A stretch of 64,000 bases of DNA from Gemmatimonadetes bacterium bin94. Its GTDB lineage: Bacteria > Gemmatimonadota > Gemmatimonadetes > Longimicrobiales > Gaopeijiaceae. Below, piece by piece: positions 2,847 to 55,461 of the stretch (positions are counted from its first letter, which is position 1; each line of letters starts with the position of its first letter). The notes below the pieces were generated by a model that was not told the origin of the DNA, did no database searches, and worked only from the letters and a program-made list of their open reading frames with translations. Location: positions 124,001 to 188,000 of the forward strand of contig MPNE01000003.1 of the NCBI GenBank assembly GCA_002238865.1. Reading direction: 5' to 3'. The translations under genes were made by a program, and so were the position numbers.

Positions 2847-3452
2847 GTGGTTATCCGCAGCGTGGAATTCGCCGGGTCGGTCGTCTCACCAGGTCAGCCC
2901 TTCCCTGGCGCCTTGCCCCAGATCGCCTTCGCCGGACGCTCCAACGTGGGGAAGTCGTCGCTGATCAACCGCGTTTTGGGGCGGCCGCGGCGCAAGGTCG
3001 CGCGCGTGTCGGCCTCACCGGGCAAGACCCAGGCCCTCAACTTCTACGAGATCAACCACGCGTTCTTCCTGGTGGACCTGCCCGGCTCCGGGTATGCGAG
3101 GGCGCCGAAGGCGGTGCGCGACTCGTGGAAGACCCTTGTGCGAAGCTACCTTGCCGGGAGCGACATGCTGCGCGGAGTGGTGTACCTGGTGGATTCGCGC
3201 CACCCGCCCACAGCGGGAGACCAAGAGTTCGTCGCGCACCTGGCGGAAACCGGGGTGCCCACGTTGATCGCGCTGACGAAGGTCGACAAACTGAAGGCGA
3301 GGGAGCGTGAGCGCGGGGTCTCGCGCGGGGTGACGAGCGGGTTGGGCGTCGCGGAGGAACAGGTCGTGGCGAGCTCCGCCCGCACCGGAGAGGGAGCTGA
3401 GGAACTGCTGGGCGCCATCGAGGCGCTGCTGGAACTGGAGCAGAAAGCGTGA
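2847..3452 (+). CDS. engB: Ribosome biogenesis GTP-binding protein EngB (YsxC/YihA)
   Basis: 201 residues from a GTG start at 2847; the frame is open further upstream, but that part lies inside lon and has no homology. The motifs are G1 GRSNVGKSS, G3 DLPGSGYA and G4 TKVDK, the compact EngB layout. A GAGG-like purine stretch precedes the GTG. The protein is a small GTPase needed for large-subunit assembly. The lon-engB neighbourhood is widely conserved, which supports the call. It overlaps the next gene by GTGA, implying translational coupling. Confidence 0.95.
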   Translation: MVIRSVEFAGSVVSPGQPFPGALPQIAFAGRSNVGKSSLINRVLGRPRRKVARVSASPGKTQALNFYEINHAFFLVDLPGSGYARAPKAVRDSWKTLVRSYLAGSDMLRGVVYLVDSRHPPTAGDQEFVAHLAETGVPTLIALTKVDKLKARERERGVSRGVTSGLGVAEEQVVASSARTGEGAEELLGAIEALLELEQKA

Positions 3453-4162
3453 ATTCAAAGCGATGGGGGACCGGGGCGACACCTCGGCGCATGTTGACCG
3501 CAGCGAGCGCCACGATGGTGGCCGCGATGGTGACGGTAGCGGCAGGGTGTGCGCCGGCGACCGTAACCGGGGGCGTTGCCGGTGGCAGGGTGGCGCCGGA
3601 GCCTCGCCCGGCCGCCGCAGCGGCACCGTCACTCGCCGGCTCCCTCCGGCAGGACCAGATCTCGGTCACGATGACTGCCCGAGCGCTGCGGATCGAGATT
3701 ACGCCGCTGGCCGCGTGGGTGCTCGAGGCGGCCGCGCCCGACACGCGGAGCCGGCTCGCCAGAATCGCCGAGGCACACGGGCCCGCGCTGGCCCGGCGGG
3801 GGGGCGGGGCGGATGCCACGCTGTTCCTGGTGTCGTTCTCAAGCGCCCAGGGGGACGCGGAGTTCCAGCCGGACGACCTCCACATGGTGTCCAGGGGGCT
3901 CCGGGAGAGGCCTCTCTCGATCCGCGCGATCACCCCCGGATGGGGAAGCCGGCGGCTCCCGCAACGGGCCACCGAGACCGCGGTCTATGTGTACGGCGGC
4001 GGCCTGGATCTGACCCGGGACCTTACGGTGGAATACCAGGGGGTCGAGGACTCGTCCTGGGCAGCCAAGGTGACGTTGATCGAGGCCGAGCGGGGACGGA
4101 TCCCGCGTCAGGACTCCCCTTCCCCCTCCTCTTCCAGGCCGAATTTCCTGACCTTGCGGTAG
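3449..4162 (+). CDS. Putative lipoprotein of unknown function
   Basis: 237 residues, not recognised. The N-terminus has a basic stretch, a hydrophobic segment and a lipobox-like VTVAAGC (Cys at about 33), so it is probably a lipoprotein facing the periplasm or outer membrane. An Ala/Pro-rich linker follows, then a soluble domain of about 150 residues with several beta-prone stretches (ATLFLVSFS, AVYVYGGGLDL, LTVEYQG). It starts on a GTG that overlaps the engB stop. Its last 55 bases are antisense to the 3' end of the sigma-54 activator gene. The Ser/Pro-rich tail coded there looks unconstrained, so the functional end may be earlier. Confidence 0.7.
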   Translation: MNSKRWGTGATPRRMLTAASATMVAAMVTVAAGCAPATVTGGVAGGRVAPEPRPAAAAAPSLAGSLRQDQISVTMTARALRIEITPLAAWVLEAAAPDTRSRLARIAEAHGPALARRGGGADATLFLVSFSSAQGDAEFQPDDLHMVSRGLRERPLSIRAITPGWGSRRLPQRATETAVYVYGGGLDLTRDLTVEYQGVEDSSWAAKVTLIEAERGRIPRQDSPSPSSSRPNFLTLR

Positions 4163-51534: not shown

Positions 51535-51678
51535 CCGGCCCGCCTGGCACCGGGCAGCCGTGGATGAGCCGCTCGGCGGTTGTCGCTCCCGGCCCCGTGT
51601 GGCACATTTCCACCTGTTCCTCCCGGGGCGAAGCCCCACGGCGTCCCGGCCCGCCACAACCAAGCTGCGGAGGCCGCT

Positions 51679-53169
51679 GTGAGCTCCGTCACGCCGACCG
51701 CCACACCCACACCCCACTTCGTCGCGGTCGTCAAGGACGACTGCGAGACCTGCCAGCTGATCGGCCCCGTGCTGGGCGAGATCGCCGCCGCGGGACACCG
51801 GCTCACCGTGTACTGGCAGGACGACGGCACATTCCTCGACCCCGCTCTCGTCGTGGTGGACGACCGGGAGCTGGTACACTCCTTTCGGCTGGGCGTCGAG
51901 ACCGTCCCCACACTCATCCGCTGCGACAGCGAAAACGGTCCCGAGACCCGGCCCTCCCGCCGCACCGATCAACCGCGGGCCGCTGGATGGATCCGGTCCG
52001 AGTGGAGAGCCCTCACCGGGTTGCCCGGACTCGGCGACGGGCTCCCACGGTACCGGCCCGGCTGCGGCTCCCTCTCGGTCGAACCCGGGGTCGCGGAAGC
52101 GCTTCAGGTGCGCCACGGACACACCGGGATCCGGGCGCGGGACATCCGGCTGGACCCCGGCGCCGACCTGGTGGAGGCATGCTTCGACCGCGGCTGGACG
52201 GACGGGCTTCCGGTCGTCCCGCCAACCCCCGAACGGGTTCTGCGCATGCTCGCGGGGACCCGACGCAATCCCGGGGAGATCGTCGGCGATGTTCCGCCCA
52301 ATCTTGCCCCGTGCACCGTCGAGAAAGTCGCCATCAATGCCGTATTGGCGGGGTGCAGGCCCGAGTACATGCCGGTGGTCCTCACGGCCCTGGAAGCCGC
52401 GCTCGACCCCGGCTTCACCCTGCACGGAGTCACGTGCAGCACCTGCTTTTCGAGCCCGGTCGTGATCGTGAACGGCCCGATCGCCAAGCGAATCGGCATG
52501 AACGCGGGGCTGAACGCGCTCGGACAGGGCAACCGGGCCAACGCCACCATCGGCCGCGCACTGAACCTGGTGGTGCGCAACGTCGGCGGCGGACGGCCCG
52601 GCGAGATCGACCGCGCCACCCTGGGATCGCCGGGCAAGGTCGGGTTCTGTTTTGCCGAAGACGAGACGGACGGGGACTGGGAGCCCCTGTCCGTCTCGAG
52701 GGGGATTTCCGCGGGCCGGAGCGCGGTCACCGTCTTCGCCGGCGACGGGATCCAGGGGGTAACCGATCAGAAGGCCCGCACCCCCGGCGAACTGACCCGT
52801 TCCCTGGCCATGGCGCTCATCGCCGTGGGGCACCCCAAGCTGTGCGAGTGGGCCCCGGCCGTGCTCGTCCTGTCGCCCGAACACCATGCCATCTATCGCG
52901 AAGCGGGGTGGGGCCGGCGGCGGATCACCGGGGCCCTGCACCGCGCTCTTCTGCGCCACGGCAGCGATCTGGTGTCCGGTGCGGGTGGCGTGGCCGAAGG
53001 CATGCCCCTGTCCCGGAAGGACGAGAAGATCCCCAAGTTCCACCCCGAGGCGTTGCTCGTGGTTCGGGCCGGGGGCCCGGCCGGCCTGTTTTCGGCCATC
53101 CTTGCAGGCTGGCCCGGAGGACGCCTCCTGGAAGAATCCCACCCCGTCACCCTGGAGATCGATGAATGA
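51679..53169 (+). CDS. Thioredoxin-like protein fused to a conserved domain, partner of the UGSC selenoprotein
   Basis: 496 residues from a GTG with GGAGG 5 bases upstream; the frame is open to 51580 without homology. Residues 10-100 have a thioredoxin-like plan with CETC (Cys22-Cys25) in VVKDDCETCQLIGPVLGEI and a cis-Pro-like TVPTLIR. Residues 165-496 form one large domain I cannot name (DRGWTDGLPVVPPTPERV, GDVPPNLAPCTVEKVAINAVLAGC, RALNLVVRNVGG, GHPKLCEWAPAVLVLSPEH). Extra cysteines include VTCSTCFSS. The stop overlaps the start of the UGSC gene (ATGA), so the two are translationally coupled. A redox partnership is inferred. Confidence 0.82.
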   Translation: MSSVTPTATPTPHFVAVVKDDCETCQLIGPVLGEIAAAGHRLTVYWQDDGTFLDPALVVVDDRELVHSFRLGVETVPTLIRCDSENGPETRPSRRTDQPRAAGWIRSEWRALTGLPGLGDGLPRYRPGCGSLSVEPGVAEALQVRHGHTGIRARDIRLDPGADLVEACFDRGWTDGLPVVPPTPERVLRMLAGTRRNPGEIVGDVPPNLAPCTVEKVAINAVLAGCRPEYMPVVLTALEAALDPGFTLHGVTCSTCFSSPVVIVNGPIAKRIGMNAGLNALGQGNRANATIGRALNLVVRNVGGGRPGEIDRATLGSPGKVGFCFAEDETDGDWEPLSVSRGISAGRSAVTVFAGDGIQGVTDQKARTPGELTRSLAMALIAVGHPKLCEWAPAVLVLSPEHHAIYREAGWGRRRITGALHRALLRHGSDLVSGAGGVAEGMPLSRKDEKIPKFHPEALLVVRAGGPAGLFSAILAGWPGGRLLEESHPVTLEIDE

Positions 53170-53708
53170 ACACGAAGCCGGTCATTCTGCACGACCCCAC
53201 CTCCGAGGCCACGCCCACCACGCGTCCCCGCCGTCCGCCACCCGACTCGCTCGACGGGAAGACGGTCGCGCTCTTCGACATCGGCAAGGCGCGGGCCGGC
53301 GAATTCCTCGATCATCTGGAGGCGCGGCTCCGTGCACGGGGCGTCTCCACGGCGCGGTTCGCCAAGCCGACGAACGCCAAACCGGCGACCACAAGGTTGC
53401 TGGGAGACATCGCCACCGGTGCGGACGCGGTGGTGGAGGCCCTCGCCGACTGAGGATCGTGCGTATCATGCGGTCTGCATGACATCAAGTCGCTGGACGA
53501 CCGGGACGTTCCCGGCCTGCTGGTCGCCACCACCGCATTCCGGGACGCGGCCGCCCACCAGGCCCACTCGCTCGGCTTCGAGCCGGCCATCGTGTGGGTG
53601 CCCCATCCCATCCAGAACCGTCTCCCCGAGGAGCTTGAACGCCTCGCCGACGATGCGCTCGAGCCGGTGCTGCAAGCCCTGACAGGGACCGCGCGACCGG
53701 CTACGTAA
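53166..53708 (+). CDS. UGSC-family selenoprotein, in-frame TGA read as selenocysteine
   Basis: Read through TGA at 53451-53453 the frame gives 180 residues and stops at TAA 53706-53708. The TGA falls at residue 96 in ALAD-U-GSCVSC, the UGSC motif of a known selenoprotein family whose other members have Cys there. Downstream residues keep the family pattern (LHDIKSLDDRDVPGLLVATTAFRDAAAHQAHSLGF, then VWVPHP). The N-terminal half has the usual SLDGKTVALFDIGKARAGEFLDHLEARL. A SECIS-like hairpin follows the TGA. A plain gene finder would report a 95-residue truncated protein. The reaction is not known; a selenol/thiol redox role is likely. It overlaps the transporter gene on the other strand by 8 bases. 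Confidence 0.88.
53451..53482 (+). promoter_or_regulatory. Sec UGA codon and bacterial SECIS-like hairpin
   Basis: Twelve bases after the TGA, TCATGC (53466-53471) pairs perfectly with GCATGA (53477-53482) around a GGTCT loop. The loop starts 18 bases after the UGA and opens with GG. This fits the bacterial SECIS form (short stem, small apical loop with an early G, 16-37 bases downstream) bound by SelB. Confidence 0.75.
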
Positions 53709-55461
53709 AGCTCGTCGTCAACAGAATCACCAGCACCACGACCGTGAGCGGCGTGCCCAGCCGGGCGTAGTCGCCGAAGTGGTACCCCCCCGGACCAAAC
53801 ACCATCAGATTGGTCTGGTAGCTCACCGGAGTCATGAACGACGCCGAGGCGGCCAGCGCGACCGCTACCGCCGCTGCGCGCGTGTCGATGCCGAAGTCGG
53901 CTGCCGTCGACAGGGCGATGGGAAGCACCAGAGCCGCTGCTGCGTTGTTGGTGATGAAGGAGCTGAGCGCGATCGTGCTGATCACGATCCCCGCCAGCGC
54001 CCCCTGCGGGCCGAAGCGCCCCAGGGCGTCCGCGACCAGGTCCGCCGCTGCGTGCCCCAGACCCGAGGTCTCCACTGCGGCCGCCAACCCGAAGGCCGCG
54101 CCGATCACGACGATCACGTCGAAATCGATCGCGTCCTTCGCCTCTATGGTCGTGAGGATGCCGAAGCCGATCAGAATGAGTGCACCGATCAGGGACAGGT
54201 GCAGGATCGGAAGGATCCCGAAGCCGGCACCCAGCACGATCGACGCCCCGACCGCGCCGACGATCCCGGCCTTGCGCGTCAGCCGTGGCGACGGATCCCC
54301 GAGACGAGGCACCAGCAGGAAGTCGTTCCGATTCCTCCAGCGCTCTCCGAAGCCACGGTCCGAGATCAACAGCAGCGTGTCACCAGGCTTCAGCGGTTCC
54401 CGTGCCAGCCGTCCGCGGATCGGTTCCCCGGCCCGGTGGATCGCCACGACGGTGGCCTGGTAGCGCGCGAGGAACATCACGTCCACCAGGGAGCGTCCCA
54501 CCAGGGGCGATTCCGGTGCGATCACGGCCTCGAAGTAGGCGTGGCGCGGGCTTCCCACCTCGTGCGGCAGGTGCGGCTGCTGCGCCGATGCCAGGCCGGA
54601 GATGTCGTGGAGGTTCAACACTGCGTCCATTCCGCCAACGAGGGTGAGGTAGTCCCCCCCCTTCAGGACCGTCACCCCCGAGACCTGCGCGGCGCCCTCT
54701 CCGTCCCGCTCGAAGTAGGCGATCTCCACATCGGCGGGAAACAGCGCCCGGGCTTCCAGCACCTGAACGCCGTCGAGAGGCCCGCCCGGCTCGACGATCA
54801 TCCTCACGGAGAAGCTGCGCCCGCCGTGGCGCACCTCCTGGCGGGGCGGCAGGCGGTCCGGCAACAGGTTCGGCGAGAACAGGACGGTGATCACGAGCCC
54901 GACGATCGCCATCGGGAGCGCGATCCGCGTCAGCTCGAACATCGTGAAGGGCTCGTACCCCTCCGCCTGCAGAAGACCCGACACCACAATGTTGGTGGAG
55001 GTCCCGATAAGCGTCGTCATTCCCCCCAGGATCGCGGCGAAGGAAAGTGGCATGAGGTAGCGCGACGGCGAGTCCCCGCGGCTGTCCGCCCATTCGCCCA
55101 CCTGCGGCGACAGCATGGCGATGATCGGCGTGTTGTTCAGGAACGCCGACGACGCCGCGACCGGAATCGTCAGCCGGGCCAGTGCGCCACGCAGCGTTCG
55201 CGCCTTCCCGAGGGTGGCCTGCACGAGGGGTTGGAGCGCCCCGCTCTTCTCGACTGCGCGCGCGAGCACGTACAACGCCGCAACGGTGATGGGAGCGGGG
55301 TTCGAGAAGCCCTGAAACGCCTGTTCGGGGGTTACCACCCCCGTGACCATCAGGACGACGACCGCGGACGCGAACGTCACCGCGGGGGCCATGTAGTCGC
55401 GGGTCAAAACCAGCACCGCGACCGCGACCACCCCCAGGGTCAGCCAGGCATCGCCGCTCAT
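53701..55461 (-). CDS. SLC13-family transporter with two TrkA-C (RCK_C) domains
   Basis: 586 residues. The N-terminal membrane half (about 1-200) carries SSAFLNNTPIIAMLSP and LIGTSTNIVVSGLL, the SNT-type sodium/substrate motif. A cytoplasmic segment (about 215-385) has two TrkA-C-like domains (VRMIVEPGGPLDGVQVLEARALF and FEAVIAPESPLVGRSLVDVMF). The C-terminal half repeats the motif (LSSFITNNAAAALVLPIAL and SASFMTPVSYQTNLMVFGPGGY). Relatives move anions such as dicarboxylates or sulphate; substrate here is not predictable. It converges on the selenoprotein gene with an 8-base overlap. Confidence 0.92.
   Translation of the reverse strand: MSGDAWLTLGVVAVAVLVLTRDYMAPAVTFASAVVVLMVTGVVTPEQAFQGFSNPAPITVAALYVLARAVEKSGALQPLVQATLGKARTLRGALARLTIPVAASSAFLNNTPIIAMLSPQVGEWADSRGDSPSRYLMPLSFAAILGGMTTLIGTSTNIVVSGLLQAEGYEPFTMFELTRIALPMAIVGLVITVLFSPNLLPDRLPPRQEVRHGGRSFSVRMIVEPGGPLDGVQVLEARALFPADVEIAYFERDGEGAAQVSGVTVLKGGDYLTLVGGMDAVLNLHDISGLASAQQPHLPHEVGSPRHAYFEAVIAPESPLVGRSLVDVMFLARYQATVVAIHRAGEPIRGRLAREPLKPGDTLLLISDRGFGERWRNRNDFLLVPRLGDPSPRLTRKAGIVGAVGASIVLGAGFGILPILHLSLIGALILIGFGILTTIEAKDAIDFDVIVVIGAAFGLAAAVETSGLGHAAADLVADALGRFGPQGALAGIVISTIALSSFITNNAAAALVLPIALSTAADFGIDTRAAAVAVALAASASFMTPVSYQTNLMVFGPGGYHFGDYARLGTPLTVVVLVILLTTSFT

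Follow-up and report, generated by a model that had tools for sequence, protein, structure and literature searches.

Evidence for selenocysteine decoding of an in-frame TGA in a UGSC-family gene of Gemmatimonadota and for a near-obligate, thioredoxin-linked partner

According to comparative sequence analyses, our results support the decoding of the in-frame TGA at 53451 as selenocysteine (Sec) in a gene of the UGSC family, yielding a predicted 180-residue selenoprotein, in a 64,000-nucleotide stretch of contig MPNE01000003.1 from Gemmatimonadetes bacterium bin94 (hereafter, the window). It adds a new member to a selenoprotein family known since a 2008 ocean survey, which gives the family no function and ranks it with the commonest ones in water (PMC2398784). 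The family is still listed without a function (PMC9312934), and a review of May 2026 describes such families as still functionally uncharacterised (PMC13188914). A near-obligate partner, a link to thioredoxin and a proposed correction of the fold were not found in the UGSC literature comprising the 2008 survey without its supplement (PMC2398784), PMC9312934 and PMC13188914. Together with its predicted flavodoxin-like fold, the conserved partner, the thioredoxin link and a Sec motif resembling that of GrdB provide this orphan family with a testable mechanism.

The features of the locus are collected in Table 1. The frame opens at an ATG, and the readthrough product contains the segment ...ALADUGSCVSCGLHDIK... 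A first-pass annotation of this DNA had described a frame running from 53166 to the TGA and open beyond it to 53706, this second part coding for GSCVSC and a family-like C-terminal half; translation confirmed the frame, and the piece after the TGA matched the family model NF041046 on its own (E 4.4e-15, profile positions 70-147 of 147), as did the piece before it (E 4.2e-9, profile positions 1-68 of 147). Since these separate matches cover positions 1-68 and 70-147, the TGA sits on the sole uncovered column, that of the Sec or Cys, which speaks against a chance open frame. The readthrough protein scored 113.8 bits against the Pfam UGSC model (PF24696; cut-off 25), covering model positions 2-171 of 172, and 113.9 bits over all 147 positions of NF041046, whose curated cut-off of 125, a strict annotation threshold of one model and not a structural feature, was not reached; given this score, an automatic pipeline could miss the family name even with readthrough. 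Compared with the family as described by both models, the window's protein displays the same whole length, Sec/Cys column, motif and in-frame TGA, and differs in this NCBIfam score and in belonging to a subfamily that adjoins a thioredoxin-fused partner. Regarding annotation, gene callers truncate the UGSC gene at residue 95 and lose its functional half; the piece after the TGA comprises 84 residues (97-180) and not the 85 originally given.

Table 1. Features of the UGSC locus (positions within the window)
Feature	Position	Strand	Remarks
UGSC-family selenoprotein gene (predicted)	53166..53708	+	180 residues, Sec at residue 96, stop TAA 53706-53708
In-frame TGA, decoding as selenocysteine supported	53451..53453	+	Relatives' codons, Cys exchange, Sec machinery of the genome
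Partner gene	51580..53169	+	N-terminal thioredoxin domain (CETC), then a domain of ~330 residues; true start uncertain
SECIS-like hairpin TCATGC-GGTCT-GCATGA	53466..53482	+	6-pair stem; loop begins 18 nt past the TGA; covariation
CitMHS/SLC13-type anion transporter gene	53701..55461	-	Convergent neighbour; Pfam and synteny

Under a standard reading the frame terminates at 53453, as would be expected if the TGA were a true stop, the gene being broken or in two pieces, or if it reflected an error of sequencing; this explanation is extremely improbable, considering that the identical TGA occupies the Sec codon in 31/31 relatives fetched from public genomes (48-81% identity), with conserved sequence thereafter and none showing another stop or a loss of conservation, as the first-pass annotation had asked. 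Within Gemmatimonadota, the family was present in 49 of 395 genomes, and exactly one TGA was observed in all 51 matches; outside the phylum, most members carry one TGA as well. Conversely, the Cys codon TGC occupies this column in distant relatives from Natrinema (an archaeon), Arthrobacter and Embleya, which agrees with the earlier statement that Sec or Cys directly precedes GSC. The Sec machinery also stands against a true stop: the search for sel genes that had been proposed recovered selA, selB, selD and tRNA-Sec (anticodon TCA) in the host genome, all above curated cut-offs. A general codon reassignment is unlikely, as other genes of this genome, the partner gene among them, end normally at TGA. 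Strong tRNA-Sec matches were found in most Gemmatimonadota genomes, so that a comparison between tRNA-Sec and UGSC presence across the phylum is uninformative. The proposal that the TGA encodes Sec within a 180-residue product is therefore upheld by the relatives' codons, the Sec machinery and a SECIS-like hairpin, all of them features of sequence. As a separate observation, the selD gene of the host genome (G000:C34:18385-19308) contains an in-frame TGA of its own, and its product is thus probably a selenoprotein too. Another candidate within the window (3132-3458), a SelB match with one TGA, was rejected, as it resembles an ordinary EngB-type GTPase and the TGA is its own stop.

Judging from the alignments, the hairpin located after the TGA behaves as a SECIS element does, its pairing being kept through compensatory changes, which further argues against a true stop. 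Among the Gemmatimonadota relatives, the third stem pair is A-U in some and G-C in others, the exchange falls at silent codon positions, and the pair is intact in all of them; when divergent paralogues of other protein sequence were included, 3 of 7 stem pairs changed on both sides (e.g., GTCGTGG-AGTGT-CCACGAC and GTCGAGC-AGTTT-GCTCGAC), 95% of the cells of the alignment were paired, and the covariation score was reached by 0 of 500 shuffles, slid structures staying far below it. The loop retains xGTxT, and in the CTPAVLRAS subfamily a similar hairpin (GCCCGC-CGTGTT-GCGGGC) is possible from unrelated sequence. The codons that form the hairpin are rare in neighbouring genes, with TCA, GTA, GGT and CAT accounting for 2.7%, 4.2%, 10% and 17% of their respective amino acids. 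In a synonymous-codon control, with the protein kept and codons redrawn from the pooled set, the mean z was -0.9 for 52 Sec sequences; a hairpin-like stem is also kept in one Cys sequence (Natrinema), which makes folding energy alone weak evidence and covariation the stronger one. A scan of the window with Rfam at gathering thresholds gave no match.

The stop codon of the partner gene, a TGA, overlaps the start of the UGSC gene as ATGA (53166-53169). Its thioredoxin domain constitutes the first ~110 residues, and no Pfam or NCBIfam match was obtained for the large domain that follows. Where the flanking sequence of a Gemmatimonadota locus was long enough, the partner nearly always adjoins UGSC, often repeating the 4-base overlap; it was identified in 46 of 390 genomes of the phylum, 45 of which also contain UGSC (Fisher p 4e-53, a value that ignores phylogeny). 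Regarding UGSC genomes without a partner, some may be absent from the second genome draw, and one match is weak. Furthermore, among the distant loci that were read (Beta- and Alphaproteobacteria, Actinobacteria and a haloarchaeon), the partner domain lies beside UGSC or is fused to it in almost all, either upstream or downstream. These sequence comparisons indicate that the partner accompanies UGSC practically always. On a plasmid of Arthrobacter (Arthrobacter sp. ERGS1:01, a Cys form) an operon runs trxB, trxA, partner, UGSC; a gene of its own thus encodes there the thioredoxin that the window's partner carries as a domain, and the reductase accompanies it. The partner's thioredoxin domain could nonetheless serve some other role. 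The 2008 survey reported UGSC/Unknown_1 fusions (PMC2398784), which likewise join UGSC to another conserved domain, unlike the window's partner, which is a separate gene with a thioredoxin domain of its own; Unknown_1 may correspond to the partner domain. An additional fusion, between UGSC and the partner and with an in-frame TGA, was observed in Acidovorax sp. T1 on the IncP, predicted conjugative plasmid p2-T1 (L121:4989-7000), where the annotation gives a hypothetical protein of 96 residues and then an empty stretch.

The partner's large domain was modelled at middling confidence only, and in structure searches the thioredoxin domain alone was matched clearly; fumarase-like and cyclic amide hydrolase-like matches were weak (E 4e-3, TM about 0.2) and were not trusted. 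The structure model of UGSC itself (mean pLDDT 91.6) displays a (beta-alpha)5 domain in which U stands where the helix of residues 97-112 begins, and its structural matches were flavodoxin-like and receiver-like folds (Z about 9-11); a sequence search in the PDB gave weak matches only, with E of 0.04 or worse. The predicted fold is thus flavodoxin-like, in disagreement with the likely Trx-like fold with a UxxC redox motif proposed in the 2008 survey (PMC2398784). That proposal, together with the thioredoxin domain on the partner, is in line with an ordinary peroxide or disulfide oxidoreductase, that is, a Trx-like redox selenoprotein rather than a GrdB-like substrate reductase. We regard this as rather unlikely, since the modelled domain looks flavodoxin-like rather than Trx-like, and a near-obligate partner with a 330-residue domain fits a catabolic enzyme better.

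The placement of Sec in a C-terminal domain recalls GrdB, GrdF and GrdH (PF07355, TIGR01917/TIGR01918), which belong to glycine, sarcosine and betaine reductase, as well as PrdB of proline reductase. UGSC shares with GrdB and PrdB the motif U-G-S/T-C-x-x-C and a weak but repeated profile match: 27 of 30 UGSC members matched the GrdB model TIGR01917 weakly (best E 5.8e-5; 12 bits and E 0.07 for the window's protein), and hhalign aligned UGSC with GrdB/PrdB-type selenoproteins of other Gemmatimonadota at the Sec column (E 4e-6). Masking of the U-G-S-C motif left the register unchanged but lowered the GrdB match to P 0.005 and a probability of 7%, so that most of the likeness stems from this motif; one Gemmatimonadota GrdB contains VATUGSCNRCG, in which the motif of UGSC recurs. 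We regard a common origin of UGSC and GrdB as likely. Unlike GrdB, UGSC is a single small domain lacking the N-terminal GrdB domain and, unlike the situation in glycine reductase, no relation of its partner to a pyruvoyl subunit of the GrdE/PrdA type was seen; a view of the partner as a GrdE relative gained no support, as no GrdE-family match was found and a profile comparison with one GrdG-like protein gave a probability of 0.2%. No match to GRDB (PF07355) was found in the host genome. Elsewhere in the phylum, one genome (G145; L083, L122) harbors a glycine/sarcosine-reductase-like cluster in which genes for a GrdG-like protein and for component C beta accompany a GrdB-type selenoprotein gene with an in-frame TGA, and PrdB-like ORFs of other Gemmatimonadota (L084-L096) stop at a TGA and continue as U-P/T-x-C, constituting a second, truncated-looking selenoprotein family of the phylum.

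A small Sec domain of the GrdB type, a large partner and a fused or co-encoded thioredoxin suggest a Sec-dependent reductive cleavage with recycling by thioredoxin. By analogy with these reductases, the best explanation of the whole is that UGSC and its partner would form one Sec-decoded, thioredoxin-recycled, GrdB-like reductase, for which we consider the chances evenly balanced. In the flavodoxin-like domain of the UGSC subunit, Sec would lie at the N-terminal end of a helix (U-G-S-C-x-x-C), and its selenolate would attack a substrate held by the large domain of the partner, as in GrdB and PrdB, and a C-X bond would be reductively cleaved; a neighbouring Cys would then resolve the Se-adduct as a selenide-sulfide, to be re-reduced by the thioredoxin domain in the window and by the separate trxA, with trxB, in Arthrobacter. 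Alternatively, the large domain of the partner could be the catalyst, with UGSC acting only as a selenium-based electron shuttle between thioredoxin and partner; the small size of UGSC, its UxxC motif and the nearly invariant residues of the partner, among them C225 and C323 (numbered as in the modelled sequence), are compatible with such a role, which is nevertheless improbable, as the GrdB-like position of Sec would, by analogy, argue for a direct attack on the substrate.

Gene neighbourhoods bear on the substrate of the putative reductase. The CitMHS/SLC13-type transporter gene is kept at the same place in several relatives, and its link to UGSC is only positional. In other organisms UGSC is surrounded by genes for TctC receptors, CoA transferases and amidohydrolases, as well as by genes of the PEP-mutase and phosphosulfolactate-synthase families. 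The viral contigs searched contained no UGSC relative. Two freshwater betaproteobacterial MAGs (G398 and G399) displayed 25 and 34 UGSC matches, respectively, several of them clustered; a single in-frame TGA is present in nearly all of these, and a strong tRNA-Sec match was found in both MAGs. So many selenoproteins would be unusual for a single genome. These neighbourhoods and the 25-34 copies per genome point to a catabolic role, with a variety of small organic compounds as substrates; paralogues in such numbers beside transport receptors and CoA transferases suit a catabolic enzyme better than a peroxide or disulfide oxidoreductase. Our guess from the neighbourhoods is that the putative GrdB-like reductase would probably act on a small organic acid or a similar carbon source. 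Tentatively, and with somewhat less than even expectation, UGSC and its partner may be viewed as a widespread two-part, thioredoxin-recycled selenoenzyme with a GrdB-like mechanism, by which aerobic bacteria and archaea would reductively cleave small organic substrates and of which certain freshwater bacteria would have come to hold dozens of copies per genome; the version in the window has thioredoxin fused to the partner. Two UGSC-like members of G398 (L115 and L116) adjoin the partner domain and lack any stop, being possible Cys or otherwise altered forms in a genome full of Sec forms.
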